Of a stretch of 32,617 bases of DNA, positions 2,390-19,081 are shown one piece after another. The stretch is from Eubacteriales bacterium (GTDB lineage Bacteria > Bacillota > Clostridia > Saccharofermentanales > UBA5734). Location: the NCBI GenBank assembly GCA_028684955.1, contig JAQUEY010000014.1:1-32617 (forward strand), read 5' to 3'. A model generated the notes under the pieces. It had not been told where the DNA came from. It ran no database searches and saw nothing but the letters and a program-made list of their open reading frames with translations. Positions within the stretch are counted from its first letter, which is position 1. Every line of letters starts with the position of its first letter. A program made the translations under genes and the position numbers.

Positions 2390-4788
2390 ACAAGGCCCGC
2401 CCCAAAACCAAGGATCGCTCCCGCTTTCGCAAACCCAGCCGTTTCGGGCTGGTTTTGTTCAGTCTGCTCTTGCTTGGCTTTGCCAGCTACCTGGTCTACC
2501 AGCTCTACCAGATCCAGATTGTCCACTATGCTGTCAATGCAGAAAAAGCTGCCGGGCAGCATTACAAGAAAGTTGCCGAAATGCCCGAACGCGGCATGAT
2601 TTATGACCGCAACGGCATCGAACTGGCTGGCATGACCTATGTCTACCAGATCGGCATCACCCCCAAGGATGTCCGTTCAATCAGTGAAAATCTGTCGCGT
2701 GATGCGATCGGTGCAGAAATCGCCAGGATCCTCGAACTGCCGGAAACTCAGGTGGTGGCAGCTTTTGAGAAGAAGGACAGCGCGTATGTCCAGTTGAAAA
2801 AGGACGTGGCCCGCGAACCAGCTGAAGCCCTGATGGCCTATCTGGGTGAACACGACATCGGCGGTTTTGCCATTGATTCGGAGCCGCGCCGCTATTACAC
2901 GAATGGGGACCTGGCCAGCCAGGTGATTGGATATACCCGTTACGATCTTGGCAACCTGGTTGGCCAGCTTGGCCTGGAGATGCACTACAACGACATCCTG
3001 ACCGGATCTCCGGGCTACACCTACGTTGAGACTGACAATTACATGAACAAAGGCGAATTACCCTTTTCAGTCCCGACCAGTTTGCGCGCCAAGGATGGAC
3101 TCAACCTGAATCTGAGCTTGGATATCAATATCCAGCGCATTGTCCAGGAAATCCTGGCTGAAGCCATCCTGAGCAATGACATCACCAATGGTGGATCAGC
3201 CATCGTGATGGATCCCTATACCGGCGGAGTCCTGGCCATGGCGTCCTATCCCTATTTCTCGAGTGCAGATCCGACTGCCCGTCCAGTGACACGAGAGGAA
3301 TCGACCTGGGATGGCTCAAGCCAGGAAAACATCAACTATCTCTCCAGTACGGTCTGGCGCAACCGGGCAATCTCGGATGCCTACGAGCCGGGTTCGACCT
3401 TCAAAACGCTTACCACAGCCATGGCTTTTGACGAAAATGTGACCCGTGAAACAGATATCTACAACGACAGCCCGATGTATGTCCTAGGCCAGGAGATCCA
3501 CTGCTACACCATTGTCGGCCACGGCATGGAAACGCTGCAGGAGGGCTTCTGGCATTCCTGCAACCCGGTCTTTGCCCAGATGGCCCAGAAACTGGGTGTC
3601 ACGCGGTTTTACCAGTACATCCGGGCGTTTGGTTTCCGTGATGTGACCGGGATTGATTTGCCCGCAGAGGCAACTGGACTGATCCACACCGACCCGACCG
3701 AACTGGACATGGCGACGCTGTCTTATGGGGAGTCTGCGACCGTGACACCCCTCCAGCTGGTCAACGCCTACACTGCCATCGCCAACGGCGGTAACCTGCT
3801 TCGGCCACGCCTGGTGTCATCGATCACCGACAGCACGGGTGCCGTGGTCCGCGAATTCGCGCCGGAGACCATCCGCAAGGTGATCTCGGAACAGACCTCC
3901 ACCCGGCTCAGAGAACTGCTTAAAGGGGTTGTCCTGCATGGAACTGGTTCAAAAGCCTATGTCGAAGGCTACCTCGTCGGCGGCAAAACGAGCACTTCGA
4001 CGGATGAACAAGGCAAACACACCTTGTCTTTCGTCGGCATTGCACCCATCGACAGTCCCCAGATTGTCACGCTGATCGTCCTGGACAAACCAGCCGATGA
4101 CAAACTGACATCGACCGTAGCAGCCAAAGCCCTGGGTGAAATCGTCTCCCAGACCCTGGAGTATCTGGGTGAAGCCAGAAACTACAGTGAACAAGATGTT
4201 TCACGCCTGACCAAATTGCGTGATGTCCCAGATCTGACAGGCATGACGCTGGCGCAGGCCCGCAAAGAGCTCAGCACCGTTGGACTCAATCTGGAGGCGG
4301 CTGATTCCGGCATGGGCGAACAATCGCAGATTCGTTCCCAGTCTCCAGCACCGAAAAGCCAGCTCCATTCGCGTGGCATAGTGGTCGTTTATCCCGATGC
4401 CGGCCCACATGAGGACTGGGTGGTCGTCCCTGATTTTTCAAAGAAGACGGTCAGTGAAGCCATCAGCGCAGCAGCTGGTAACGGGCTCAACATCCGGATT
4501 GAGGGAGATGGACTCGGACTGGCTGTCCGCCAGGATCCAGCCCCGACTCACGGGGAGAAATCTGATTCTACCAGCGCGAAGCCAGATCCTGCAGCAAGTG
4601 ATACGGATTCCAGTGAGGCTGCCAGTGATCCAGAGTCAGAGACCAGCAATAGCTCACAAGACACCCTGTTGACCAATGATGAAGGCCAGCTTTTGCGCGG
4701 CAGTGTGGTCCGGATCTGGTTTGAGGCTGCCGAAGAAATTGCTGTTGACCCTTCCGCTACGGTTGAAACTGAAGCAGCAAACCCCTAA
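2386..4788 (+). CDS. Class B penicillin-binding protein with PASTA domains (FtsI/SpoVD type)
   Basis: An 800-residue septal transpeptidase that cross-links peptidoglycan together with FtsW. It has a basic cytoplasmic start, a membrane anchor at about 20-42, a PBP dimerisation region, a transpeptidase domain (about 240-590) and two C-terminal PASTA-like domains (about 605-670 and 678-780). Catalytic motifs are STFK with Ser337 and Lys340, S391-C392-N393, and K534-T535-S536 where KTG would be expected. The second PASTA domain is split after QDPAPTHGE by about 41 Ser/Asp/Glu/Pro-rich residues (725-765) before LLRGSVVRIWFE resumes the fold. The start overlaps the ftsL stop by four bases. Whether it is a vegetative PBP2B/FtsI or a SpoVD-like paralogue cannot be settled here; as the only PBP in the cluster, the division role is more likely. 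Confidence 0.93.
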   Translation: MNKARPKTKDRSRFRKPSRFGLVLFSLLLLGFASYLVYQLYQIQIVHYAVNAEKAAGQHYKKVAEMPERGMIYDRNGIELAGMTYVYQIGITPKDVRSISENLSRDAIGAEIARILELPETQVVAAFEKKDSAYVQLKKDVAREPAEALMAYLGEHDIGGFAIDSEPRRYYTNGDLASQVIGYTRYDLGNLVGQLGLEMHYNDILTGSPGYTYVETDNYMNKGELPFSVPTSLRAKDGLNLNLSLDINIQRIVQEILAEAILSNDITNGGSAIVMDPYTGGVLAMASYPYFSSADPTARPVTREESTWDGSSQENINYLSSTVWRNRAISDAYEPGSTFKTLTTAMAFDENVTRETDIYNDSPMYVLGQEIHCYTIVGHGMETLQEGFWHSCNPVFAQMAQKLGVTRFYQYIRAFGFRDVTGIDLPAEATGLIHTDPTELDMATLSYGESATVTPLQLVNAYTAIANGGNLLRPRLVSSITDSTGAVVREFAPETIRKVISEQTSTRLRELLKGVVLHGTGSKAYVEGYLVGGKTSTSTDEQGKHTLSFVGIAPIDSPQIVTLIVLDKPADDKLTSTVAAKALGEIVSQTLEYLGEARNYSEQDVSRLTKLRDVPDLTGMTLAQARKELSTVGLNLEAADSGMGEQSQIRSQSPAPKSQLHSRGIVVVYPDAGPHEDWVVVPDFSKKTVSEAISAAAGNGLNIRIEGDGLGLAVRQDPAPTHGEKSDSTSAKPDPAASDTDSSEAASDPESETSNSSQDTLLTNDEGQLLRGSVVRIWFEAAEEIAVDPSATVETEAANP

Positions 4789-14837: not shown

Positions 14838-15548
14838 GTGAAAAAGGCACTCATCGTCGACGACGATCCGCATATCAGTGAATTATTGCGCCTGTACTTC
14901 GACAAGGACGGTTTTGATGTTGTCACCTGCTACGATGGCAACCATGCAGTGGAAATCTTTCCCCAGGCAGCACCAGACATAGTCATCCTCGACCTGATGT
15001 TGCCAGGCAAGGATGGCTATGATGTCTTGCGCGAGATCCGCCGGACGTCCAATGTCCCTGTGATCATGCTCACCGCCCGTGGTGACACACTTGACAAAGT
15101 GGTCGGACTCGAGCTCGGGGCGGATGACTATGTCCAGAAACCCTTCGAACCAAAGGAACTTCTGGCCCGGGTCAAGGCTGTTCTGCGCCGCGTAGAGACC
15201 CCTCAAGACCCACAGAAGGCCAGCCAGAACCATGGGTCATCGGAATGGGTCGAGTATCCGGGCATCCGCATCGACAAATCCCGCTACAGCGTCACTGCAG
15301 GCGGACAGAATATCGAAATGCCTCCCAAGGAGCTCGAGCTACTCTTTTTCCTGGCTTCCCACCCCAATCGAGTGTTCACCCGGGAGCAACTCCTGGAAAA
15401 CATCTGGGGGTTTGACTATTTTGGTGAGTCACGCACCGTTGATGTCCACATCAAGCGGATCCGTGAAAAACTCGAGGAGACAGGCGAACATCCGAACTGG
15501 CAGATCAAGACGGTCTGGGGCGTCGGTTACAAATTTGAAGCATTCTGA
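14838..15548 (+). CDS. OmpR/PhoB-family response regulator
   Basis: A 236-residue two-domain response regulator. The receiver domain (about 1-118) has the acidic pocket D8-D9-D10, phosphoacceptor D52 in ILDLMLPGKDGYD, T79 in MLTAR and K101 in QKPFEPKEL. A winged-helix DNA-binding domain (about 138-236) begins GIRIDKSRYSV and contains LTREQL-like FTREQLLENIWGFDYFGESRTVDVHIKRIREK with the recognition helix. It should be phosphorylated by the adjacent kinase. GTG start, supported by GGAGG (14824-14828) nine bases upstream. Similar proteins include WalR, PhoP and ResD; I cannot choose among them from the sequence alone. Confidence 0.94.
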   Translation: MKKALIVDDDPHISELLRLYFDKDGFDVVTCYDGNHAVEIFPQAAPDIVILDLMLPGKDGYDVLREIRRTSNVPVIMLTARGDTLDKVVGLELGADDYVQKPFEPKELLARVKAVLRRVETPQDPQKASQNHGSSEWVEYPGIRIDKSRYSVTAGGQNIEMPPKELELLFFLASHPNRVFTREQLLENIWGFDYFGESRTVDVHIKRIREKLEETGEHPNWQIKTVWGVGYKFEAF

Positions 15549-15568: not shown

Positions 15569-17089
15569 ATGCTTTGGCCGCGCCGCCTGATGAATTCCCT
15601 CTATGGCCGGACCATCCTCCAGCTGGCGATGGCTATTTTGATTGTCTTCTCCCTGATGGGCGTGGTTTACTACGGCATCGTGACGACCGCCAGTGCCCGC
15701 CAGCAATCGAGCCAGCTTCTGGCCAGTGCCCGGGCGATCGCAGAAATGGCAGGCCCTTCTTTTAATGCCAGCCAAGGCCGGGTCACCAGTTCGACCGTCA
15801 TCAGCTACCTCAACTTCACCGCCCGTTCGACGGGCGCTCTGGTCTGGGTGATCGACAGCACGGGCACCCTCGCCTACACAACCAGTGTCCCGGCAAGCAT
15901 TTCTACCCGGTTTGAATCCAGTGACGGTGAATGGATCGTACCAGCAACCTATCGCGGCGGTTCTACTCTGGGTAAATCCGGCCTGGCTTCGATCGGCGAT
16001 TTTCGCGGCCTTTTTCGCAGCACAGGCCAACGCTGGATCAGCACCGTCGTCCCGATTCCCTCACCGACTGGTGCCTATACGGGTGAAATCCAGCTCCACC
16101 GCCCGGTGGTGACGGAAAGCTTCAACAGTTTCCTGATGACCAACAGCCTGCTGTTTTCGATGCTGGTGGCTTTTTTCCTGGCCTTGCTTTTCCTGGGCCT
16201 TTTGTCGCGCAACATCACCCGGCCGATTCGGATGCTGGCCAACACGGCAGACAAGGTCTACCGCGGTGACCTGTCAGCCCGGGTCATCTTGCCCGGCATG
16301 GCCGCTCCTGACAAGCCCCACCAGCGTGCACTGGTTACCGATGACCTGATGGTTCTGGTCGAGACCATGAATTCGATGATCGAGAAACTGGAACACCAGG
16401 AGAGAAGCCGGCGCGATTTCATCTCGAGCGTCTCGCACGATTTGCGCACCCCCCTGACGTCCATCCGCGGTTTTGTCGAAGGCATGCTCGATGGGACAGT
16501 ACCCCCGGAAAAAACGGCTGTTTACCTGGAAATTGTCAAGCAGGAGGTGTTGCGCTTGCAGAACCTGGTCCAGACCTTGTCCGAGGCCAGCCGCTACGAG
16601 AGTGGTACTTTCTTGCTGGATGAACAGCCTTTCAACATCAATGCAGTCATCCGGGAAGATGTCTATGGACTGGAGTCTTTGATCAACGAAAAATCCATCA
16701 GTGTCCAGAGTGACTTCGATGAGTCCGAGCCTGGGCGCCTGAGCGTGCTCGGTGACCGGGAAGCCATCAGCCGGGTCGTCTATAACATCATTTCCAATGC
16801 AATCCGGTTTTGCCCGGCCGACGGAGTTATCGCTTTGTCCACTCGGCGAATCAAGGGCAGCCATCAGGTTGAAGTGATCATCGAAGACAGTGGTCCAGGT
16901 GTGGCAGAAAAGGACCGGCCGTTCATTTTTGACCGCTTTTATACGGCAGAACGGAGCCGGACCAGCAAGAGCTCCGGCCTCGGCCTGTTCATTTGCCGGA
17001 CCATTCTGGCAGCCCATGGCCAGCGCATCGTGGTGACCGACAGTGATCTTGGGGGAGCCCGCTTCAGGTTCACCCTGAAAACGCCGTAA
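15569..17089 (+). CDS. Sensor histidine kinase with HAMP domain
   Basis: A 506-residue membrane kinase. Two membrane segments (about 14-38 and 192-212) flank an extracytoplasmic sensor of about 150 residues that I do not recognise. A HAMP linker follows (NITRPIRMLANTADKV onward), then the HisKA domain with phosphoaccepting H290 in VSHDLRTPLTSIRGF and the HATPase domain with N box NIISNAIRF, G1 EDSGPGVAEKDRPFIFDRF and G2 SSGLGLFICR. There is no PAS domain between HAMP and HisKA, unlike WalK. It lies 20 bases after the response regulator. Only a weak ribosome site (AAAGG) precedes ATG 15569. Confidence 0.94.
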   Translation: MLWPRRLMNSLYGRTILQLAMAILIVFSLMGVVYYGIVTTASARQQSSQLLASARAIAEMAGPSFNASQGRVTSSTVISYLNFTARSTGALVWVIDSTGTLAYTTSVPASISTRFESSDGEWIVPATYRGGSTLGKSGLASIGDFRGLFRSTGQRWISTVVPIPSPTGAYTGEIQLHRPVVTESFNSFLMTNSLLFSMLVAFFLALLFLGLLSRNITRPIRMLANTADKVYRGDLSARVILPGMAAPDKPHQRALVTDDLMVLVETMNSMIEKLEHQERSRRDFISSVSHDLRTPLTSIRGFVEGMLDGTVPPEKTAVYLEIVKQEVLRLQNLVQTLSEASRYESGTFLLDEQPFNINAVIREDVYGLESLINEKSISVQSDFDESEPGRLSVLGDREAISRVVYNIISNAIRFCPADGVIALSTRRIKGSHQVEVIIEDSGPGVAEKDRPFIFDRFYTAERSRTSKSSGLGLFICRTILAAHGQRIVVTDSDLGGARFRFTLKTP

Positions 17090-17093
17090 ACTG

Positions 17094-17123
17094 TTCATAT
17101 CACATTCATTTCTATCCTATAAA
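17094..17123 (+). promoter_or_regulatory. Candidate promoter of the HtrA-like gene
   Basis: TTCATA (17094-17099), an 18-base spacer and TATAAA (17118-17123) lie in the AT-rich 83-base gap after the kinase. The -35 is weak. If real, transcription starts near 17130, which argues against an ATG start at 17128 for the next gene. Confidence 0.5.
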
Positions 17124-17172
17124 ATAAATGTGCTTGAACAGATCCAGACAGGACTTTGACGGAGGATATCGC

Positions 17173-18456
17173 GTGACAGTTCTGACAAACCGCACTCTAG
17201 GTCTGGCTGCCTTTGGTCTTTTCTCGGCAGTCATGGCATCCATGCTCACTTCCTGGCTATACACCGCTGGCCCTTTGGCAGCACCTGAACCGTCTGTTTC
17301 AGAAACGACTCAGGAGGCGACCTCGGCAGAAACCAGCCAGTCTGTCCTGGTGCTCCCCAAACCGAGCATCCTGGCCACTACTGCCAGCGTCCCCCAGAGC
17401 CAGGTACCAGAACCGACCCCGCTGCCATTGATTCCCCCCGAGATCCTCGGTGACCAGGCCAAGGAACAAATCGCACTTCTGGCCGAAGGACGCCTGGTCG
17501 AGGAGCTCTACAATCAAGTCGCCCCCAGTGTGGTCGGTATTCAGGTCGAGGCCCAGTCCGACACCTCGACGACCGTGATTTCCGACAGCGGATCCGGCGT
17601 CATTTACTCCGCCCAAGGCCAGATCCTGACCTCGGCAGATTTGTTGAAAATTGCCCTTGACCGCTCCGGTCAATTACTGGAAAACAGCCGCATTCTGGTC
17701 CGGGTCCAGCAAGAAAACCGCCTGTTCGAGGCCCAGCTGGCCGGTCTGGATGAGACCACAGGTGTCGCTGTCCTGACCATCGATCCTGGTTCGGCCGAAC
17801 TGGTTGCAGCCAGGTTCAGCCTCCAGAATACCCTCCGGGTCGGGCAGGTCGTCTTTTTCCTCAGCTTCCCGGACGACATGGTCAGCGAAGGCTGCCTGAC
17901 CAGCGGACTGGTGACAGCCTTGCACCAGCCGGTTCTGCTCGAAGATGGCACTAAGGTTGAGATGGTCCGCTCCAATGCACCGATCCTGGCCAGTGGCCAG
18001 GGCGGCCCCCTGCTCAATCTTGCCGGCGAGGTCGTCGCCCTGGCTAATTCGAGCCAGCTGAGCGAGACGTTCGAAAGCCTGAGCTACGCGATCGAGACGC
18101 CGACCGTCCTCGATGTGGCCGAACGCCTTCTGGGCGAATCCGCACCGGAAGGACAGCCCTGGCTGGGCATCGCCGTGCTCAAAGACGAGAGCTTTGCCGC
18201 GCTCAAGGACTTGTACGATTTCCCGGATGGCTTGTATGTCAGCCATGTCATTGAAGACAGTCCGGCCTATCTTGCCGATATTCGCCGAGGTGATATCATA
18301 ACAGAAGTGAACGGAGAGCCTGTCCGCCTCCACCAGAGCTTGTCTTCCATCCTGGCCCAGCATGAGCCAGGCGACCAGCTGACCTTGGGCATCTATCGCC
18401 GTTCTGACAAGCAAATTTACGCCATCAAAGTCTACCTGAAGGAAGCCAATGACTGA
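17173..18456 (+). CDS. Membrane-anchored HtrA-like protein lacking the catalytic triad, with PDZ domain
   Basis: A 427-residue protein with one N-terminal membrane anchor (about 8-30), a Ser/Thr/Pro-rich linker (about 32-100), a trypsin-like domain of the HtrA/DegP type (about 112-315) and a C-terminal PDZ domain (about 330-420). The scaffold is recognisable by APSVVGIQV, DSGSGVIYS, VAVLTI and QGGPLLN. At the three catalytic positions the residues are changed: ILTSADLL has D156 where the histidine of TNNHV is expected, TTGVAVL has G197 for the aspartate, and SGQGGPL has Q276 for the serine. Proteolysis is therefore unlikely; a binding or signalling role is inferred. GTG 17173 is chosen because GGAGGA ends six bases before it. 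It follows the two-component genes and overlaps nth by eight bases. Confidence 0.85.
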   Translation: MTVLTNRTLGLAAFGLFSAVMASMLTSWLYTAGPLAAPEPSVSETTQEATSAETSQSVLVLPKPSILATTASVPQSQVPEPTPLPLIPPEILGDQAKEQIALLAEGRLVEELYNQVAPSVVGIQVEAQSDTSTTVISDSGSGVIYSAQGQILTSADLLKIALDRSGQLLENSRILVRVQQENRLFEAQLAGLDETTGVAVLTIDPGSAELVAARFSLQNTLRVGQVVFFLSFPDDMVSEGCLTSGLVTALHQPVLLEDGTKVEMVRSNAPILASGQGGPLLNLAGEVVALANSSQLSETFESLSYAIETPTVLDVAERLLGESAPEGQPWLGIAVLKDESFAALKDLYDFPDGLYVSHVIEDSPAYLADIRRGDIITEVNGEPVRLHQSLSSILAQHEPGDQLTLGIYRRSDKQIYAIKVYLKEAND

Positions 18457-19081
18457 AAAAGAACGGGCAGCTGCGATTGTCGCCGCCCTGGAGCAACACT
18501 ACCCTGACGCCCTCTGCACCCTCGACTACCGGTCAGCCCATGAATTGCTGGTGGGTGCTATCCTGGCCGCGCAATGCACCGACTACAGGGTCAATCTCAT
18601 CACTCCCGCCCTTTTCGAGCGCTATCCGACTCCCCAAGCTTTCGCGGAGTCTGACCGCTCAGAACTCGAAGACCTGATCCGCTCCTGCGGCCTCTTCCGC
18701 AACAAGGCCAAGGCGATCCAGGCATCCTGTGCTGCGCTGGTGCGTGACCATGACAGTCAGATGCCTGACTCGCTCGAAGCGTTGACGCGCTTGCCGGGTG
18801 TCGGGCGCAAAATCGCCAACCTGGTCCTGGGTGACTGGTTTGGCCGCCAGGCTGTCGTCGTCGATACCCATTGTGCCCGGATCTCCCGCTTGCTCGGCCT
18901 GACGGAACAGACTGACCCGGCTGCGATCGAGCGTGACCTGGTGGCTGTTCTGCCGCCAGACAAGCAGACCGCCTATGGCCATCTGGTTGTCGCACATGGC
19001 CGTGAAATCTGCATCGCCCGCCGTCCCGGCTGCCAAAGCTGCCCCATCAAGCCCTTGTGTCACCATGGCCGGACTGCTTGA
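18449..19081 (+). CDS. nth: Endonuclease III (DNA glycosylase/AP lyase)
   Basis: A 210-residue base excision repair enzyme that removes oxidised pyrimidines and cuts at the resulting abasic site. The helix-hairpin-helix is LTRLPGVGRKIANLV with catalytic Lys121, followed by catalytic Asp139 in VVDTHCARISRLLG. The C-terminal 4Fe-4S cluster ligands have the exact spacing C-x6-C-x2-C-x5-C in CIARRPGCQSCPIKPLC. Length matches the family. The start overlaps the preceding stop by eight bases and its own end overlaps recG by 17 bases, so the three genes are probably translated from one message. Confidence 0.96.
   Translation: MTEKERAAAIVAALEQHYPDALCTLDYRSAHELLVGAILAAQCTDYRVNLITPALFERYPTPQAFAESDRSELEDLIRSCGLFRNKAKAIQASCAALVRDHDSQMPDSLEALTRLPGVGRKIANLVLGDWFGRQAVVVDTHCARISRLLGLTEQTDPAAIERDLVAVLPPDKQTAYGHLVVAHGREICIARRPGCQSCPIKPLCHHGRTA

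Follow-up and report, generated by a model that had tools for sequence, protein, structure and literature searches.

The window, that is, the whole stretch of 32,617 nucleotides that was analysed, contains an HtrA-type gene (17173..18456, + strand) whose product, as judged by alignment, has lost all three catalytic residues and cannot cut by the serine mechanism. As far as our tools show, this is a real and conserved pseudoprotease, of a kind already known from MamO, but new in its lineage and in its two-component context. We favour, with a probability of roughly 0.55, the reading that this conserved dead HtrA has turned into an accessory of the two-component system next to it, namely a membrane-tethered, non-cutting PDZ chaperone or co-sensor which is controlled by the response regulator and gives feedback to the kinase. 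The protein is probably a peptide-binding partner of the signalling system instead of an enzyme, since its cutting residues are gone, the gene is under selection and linked to those of the regulator and the kinase, and it often has a switch-like promoter of its own. As to its origin, a protease of the HtrA family coupled to a two-component system is the best reading. The product would be a membrane-anchored PDZ sensor or scaffold, as the first-pass annotation had suggested; what had been missed there is the strongest clue, namely the two-component system to which the gene is linked and a promoter box of the regulator type.

The pseudoprotease and its selective constraint

The frame is open from a GTG start and encodes 427 amino acids, and a GGAGG ribosome site lies directly 5' of the GTG, so that the full length and the good ribosome site first reported both hold. 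An alternative ATG at 17128, 45 nt upstream of the GTG and 3 nt past a conserved -10 box, is an unlikely start because it precedes the expected start of the transcript, and 17173 is the better choice. The Pfam domains Trypsin_2 (1.9e-16) and PDZ_2 (2e-14) both pass their cut-offs and give the architecture of the HtrA/Deg fold family (MEROPS S1C), a trypsin-like domain followed by a PDZ domain; the scores against the NCBIfam HtrA equivalogs were all far under cut-off. An AlphaFold2 model built from a 47-sequence alignment (mean pLDDT 78) has a helix at residues 4-31, taken as the transmembrane anchor, and then a variable linker (about 34-92, with low confidence around 40-92), the dead trypsin-like domain (about 101-322) and the PDZ domain (about 328-427), all encoded on the + strand. 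The best single-domain fold match of the model was DegS delta-PDZ, with a Z of 27.3 and an rmsd of 2.3 Å over 193 residues. The trypsin-like scaffold and the intact PDZ domain described earlier are thus borne out by Pfam and by the DegS-like model.

The catalytic positions were placed by sequence alignment and not by the AlphaFold2 model. In phmmer alignments to solved HtrAs (MucD and DegP-like structures), Asp156 (codon 17638..17640, +) falls on the His of TNNHV, Gly197 (17761..17763, +) on the Asp of the DVAVL segment, and Gln276 (17998..18000, +) on the Ser of GNSGG, and the same three residues stand in the H, D and S columns of intact relatives. These are the substitutions that had been read from the single sequence, and the His-Asp-Ser triad of active HtrA/Deg proteases is absent. 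No substitute His was seen in the catalytic region, and H251, in the protease domain, is not conserved in orthologues.

The dead HtrAs of the genera g3, g4, g8 and g9 (L021, L022, L023, L024, L025, L027 and L029) have two cysteines on either side of the former active site. One aligns with position 275 of the window protein, immediately ahead of the Ser position, and the other, 18 residues further along, with position 293. The pair was found in none of the intact HtrAs compared and is lost in the genus of the window; it could be a disulfide or a metal site in the collapsed cleft.

Selection was measured by the Nei-Gojobori method on four congeners. Omega was 0.059 for the pseudoprotease, 0.055 for the kinase, 0.025 for the regulator and 0.079 for Nth, values that are rough given a dS of about 0.64, yet far from neutrality. 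Within the pseudoprotease the transmembrane helix had a dN of 0, and omega was 0.109 for the linker, 0.051 for the protease domain and 0.043 for the PDZ domain. One loop of HtrA PDZ domains binds carboxylates, and its WLG residues are invariant, together with many other PDZ positions, in 15 of the 15 family-1 orthologues. The orthologues thus share the catalytic loss on a fold held by purifying selection, as a pseudoprotease should; apart from genus g2, the loss of the triad is conserved. The earlier view of a functional pseudoprotease, not a decayed gene, stands on this omega, on open frames in 33 copies and on an old, shared loss of the triad.

Locus, promoter and distribution

The gene lies at the end of a division and cell-wall (dcw) cluster with the order mraW, a penicillin-binding protein with PASTA domains, two Mur ligases, mraY-like, ftsW-like, murG-like, a DUF1290 gene and ftsZ, after which come nrdR, the response regulator, the kinase, the pseudoprotease, nth and recG. 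The regulator (14838..15548, +; Pfam Response_reg and Trans_reg_C) is of the OmpR/PhoB family, and its best NCBIfam models (MtrA, YycF and PhoB) each score under cut-off. The membrane sensor histidine kinase (15569..17089, +) has an extracellular domain, HAMP, HisKA and HATPase_c by Pfam, and is best matched by a WalK-like model at a score far under cut-off. The start of nth (endonuclease III, HhH-GPD by Pfam; 18449..19081, +) overlaps the stop of the pseudoprotease gene by 8 bp. The YycF score of the locus regulator is 258 bits against a cut-off of 340, which no genome tested in the order passes. Other genomes of the order have a better YycF/WalR match (307-322 bits) away from this locus; in the genus of the window (G000 and G001) the locus regulator is itself the best match, and the usual WalR may be missing.

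Between the kinase and the pseudoprotease gene lies a direct repeat, TGTTCA-N5-CATTCA (17092..17108, +), with an 11-bp period, and then a -10 element, TAAAAT (17120..17125, +), at a fixed 11 nt from the repeat, a spacing that is constant across genera. Regulators of the OmpR/PhoB type use 11-bp direct repeats, and this putative box would be bound by the regulator of the locus. A box that ends 11 nt before the -10, with no -35 present, would suit a promoter activated by a regulator. In genomes of family 1 the pattern TGTTCA-N5-CATTCA-N11-TAnnAT is found upstream of the pseudoprotease gene. Each of the five genomes of g1, the genus of the window, has a single exact copy of the repeat, at this gene, and beyond g1 it is nearly confined to the same gene; box and -10 together occur once per genome in eight further genomes, each time just 3' of the kinase. 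Reversed patterns gave zero matches, and the genomes without the kinase gave none. Much of family 2 (g11, g14, g16 and most of g15) has a weak box or none; in g10 the box is degenerate with two mismatches, in two g8 genomes it had no match, and in g2 it is inexact. The promoter is conserved at the level of sequence, as are the linkage and the gene itself. A regulon was also sought from one-mismatch matches to the box; the two other sites looked at in the window genome, which adjoin genes for a peptidase and GMP synthase and for an ABC substrate-binding protein and an AraC regulator, presented no clear theme.

The gene was found at the same locus in 14 further genomes of family 1 and, in family 2, in g10, g11, g14, g15 and g16, and the order regulator, kinase, pseudoprotease, nth is conserved in these two families of the order. 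A fragment of the gene lies at a contig end in the family-1 genome G020. The copy in g12 (L124 in G031, 2751-3611) is interrupted by a run of N; it has Ser at the His position and keeps the Asp, and also looks dead. In g5 and g13 the regulator, kinase and HtrA are all missing at the locus and nrdR adjoins nth, and in g7 the regulator is present and both kinase and HtrA are missing. Where a single contig of a sampled f3 or f4 genome carries regulator, kinase and nth, the kinase is followed by nth with no intervening HtrA. Conversely, no HtrA without the kinase was seen at the locus in any sampled genome whose contig spans both. The anchor is a transmembrane helix in family 1, g14 and g11, whereas lipobox-like signals (LSC, SGC and SSC, read by eye) occur in g10 and g15, where such signal peptides replace the helix (L118-L121 and L128-L133) and surface tethering is retained.

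Intact HtrAs with His, Asp and Ser are common in the order; they occur elsewhere in nearly all well-sampled genomes that have a dead copy, and also in g5, g6, g7 and g13, which are without one. The window genome has one intact paralogue split over two contigs (G000:C183, 5050-6033, and G000:C41, 2882-3136), which match the corresponding parts of the G001 copy at identities of 97% and 94%.

Proposed role beside the two-component system

The sequence of events that we propose would begin with an envelope signal sensed by the kinase. The phosphorylated regulator would then act on the TGTTCA-N5-CATTCA repeat and turn on the gene's own promoter, and the product would be tethered at the membrane, outside the cell, by a transmembrane helix here and by a lipid anchor in some relatives. 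There the groove of its PDZ domain, perhaps together with the inactive cleft of the protease domain, would bind peptide ends that are exposed or envelope proteins that are unfolded, with no cutting, and the pseudoprotease would in this way serve as a chaperone or co-sensor with feedback on the kinase. Peptide binding, contact with the kinase and the sign of the action on it are what we infer. An accessory role is favoured by the fact that three lineages without the kinase (g5, g13 and g7) are without the HtrA too, by selection near the level of the kinase, and by an anchoring that is kept despite the switch in its type. More tentatively, at somewhat less than even odds, the dead HtrA may be the principal and perhaps sole target of the two-component system, a peptide-binding co-sensor or feedback subunit of the kinase; it would stem from a single ancestral conversion of a kinase-controlled HtrA protease into a signalling part, and both families would have retained it alongside the kinase. 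The neighbourhood could also come from shared linkage to the dcw cluster, nth and recG being equally syntenic.

Such a loop can be fed by a dead HtrA, as the engineered inactive HtrA S260A of B. subtilis indicates: there the output of the htrA promoter, that is, secretion stress, went down and amylase secretion went up (PMC10715036). The window protein would be a natural counterpart of this engineered form that dampens secretion stress. According to the authors of a study of C. difficile WalRK, the wal operons examined so far contain accessory genes for membrane proteins that modulate WalK (PMC9210968).

Intact HtrAs are present in most genomes as well, and a main rival is therefore that the dead copy is a partner of one of these, in mixed oligomers or through activation or inhibition, and that its link with the two-component system is shared regulation only. 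MamO does activate MamE, and pairs of pseudo and active forms recur in magnetotactic bacteria (PMC4794232). However, the four genera with intact HtrAs and no dead copy are at odds with this explanation, and absence of the dead copy tracks absence of the kinase and not of the HtrA paralogues; we consider it unlikely. We give a similarly low probability to a stand-alone extracytoplasmic holdase that would serve secreted proteins; the two-component system would induce it, and the kinase would receive no feedback from it. Inactive HtrA has chaperone activity in E. coli and, it appears, also in B. subtilis (PMC10715036), and a regulator-type promoter at the gene would suit such a role; yet a pure chaperone need not vanish in each lineage without the kinase, and a transmembrane helix with no replacement change in four species goes beyond the needs of a plain tether.

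Residual or re-purposed catalysis, by another nucleophile (such as the Cys275 of relatives) or an unusual triad, is very improbable: even though Ser is kept in g4, g8, g9, g11 and g14, and a Cys is adjacent in g3, g4, g8 and g9, the general-base His is gone throughout the clade and the Asp throughout family 1, and the window protein has Gln at the Ser position and no Cys near it. Still less credible is a degenerating gene retained for now by its position between the kinase and nth. Residues at the triad positions do drift (D/A/G/S/Q at one and Q/G/S/T/A/F/P/N at another), as is expected after loss of catalysis, but this explanation is already contradicted by the selection test, and open frames in two families, the conserved promoter and the invariant PDZ motifs also speak against it.

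The accessory that we favour has partial likenesses in several known systems. MamO of the alpha-proteobacterial magnetosome has an HtrA/trypsin-2 domain with a degenerate triad and is conserved beside active relatives, and it shows that roles other than catalysis are within reach of an HtrA pseudoprotease, the activation of an active partner among them (PMC4794232). In MamO there is also a transporter domain, and a di-His site that binds metal serves magnetite formation (PMC4794232), whereas the window protein has a PDZ domain, no transporter domain by Pfam and an adjoining two-component system; against the NCBIfam MamO profile it scores 32.7 bits, far under the cut-off of 800. In CssRS-HtrA/HtrB (Bacillus, Streptomyces) and CutRS-htrA3 (Streptomyces) a two-component system controls surface proteins of the HtrA family (PMC10715036, PMC12802291), but those are proteases, and here a naturally dead HtrA is apparently the only target with the exact putative box. 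In WalRK operons (YycH/YycI, C. difficile WalA; PMC9210968), as here, a WalK-like kinase is encoded beside an extracellular protein that is anchored in the membrane or by a lipid; by the YycF score, however, the locus is not a WalRK orthologue, and its accessory is derived from HtrA. DegS, which is among the best fold matches, shares the membrane-anchored protease-PDZ architecture and a signalling role. DegS signals by cutting RseA, which the window protein cannot do by a serine mechanism. The natural HtrA pseudoproteases in the literature searched were those of magnetotactic bacteria, and our search found no described HtrA pseudoenzyme of Firmicutes, most subscription journals lying outside its scope. 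The present one is ancient, occurs widely among uncultured Clostridia and is tied to one kinase by linkage, joint absence and promoter.

History of the catalytic loss

A tree from which the triad columns had been removed placed all 33 dead copies (15 of family 1 and 18 of family 2, every frame open) in one clade with a support of 100/98. Its neighbours are intact long-loop HtrAs, that of g2 at the locus and others at different sites in g4 and g5. Judged from these sequences, the loss of catalysis dates far back and is common to the dead copies. Apart from those of g2, every copy at the locus in both families has D, A, G, S or Q at the His position; the Asp position holds Gly or Asn in the dead copies of family 1 and is kept in family 2, and the Ser is retained in some copies and lost in others. 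Read most simply, catalysis was lost once, with the His going first, because the Asp is kept in family 2 and the Ser in several genera.

The intact triad at the locus is confined to g2 (two genomes). The first-pass annotation had named close relatives with an intact triad as grounds against it; none was found among close relatives, and only this more distant genus has such a copy. A grouping of the intact g2 copy with the dead copies of family 1 was rejected by the tree of the full domain (AU p = 0.00018), but the PDZ domain by itself was not decisive (p = 0.2), and the kinase is compatible with such a grouping (p = 0.37). The full-domain test may be biased by a relaxed constraint that is shared. 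The ancestral triad may have been kept in g2, or an intact copy may have been regained there; given the disagreement between the tests, replacement of the g2 copy by an intact paralogue and parallel losses both stand. A history in which kinase and HtrA travelled together against the species tree was hinted at by the topology, was not significant and was dropped. With its intact copy at the same locus, g2 offers a route to study the conversion of a protease into a signalling part. One g2 genome (G006) also has an HtrA fragment with an internal TGA (C251:3411-3662).
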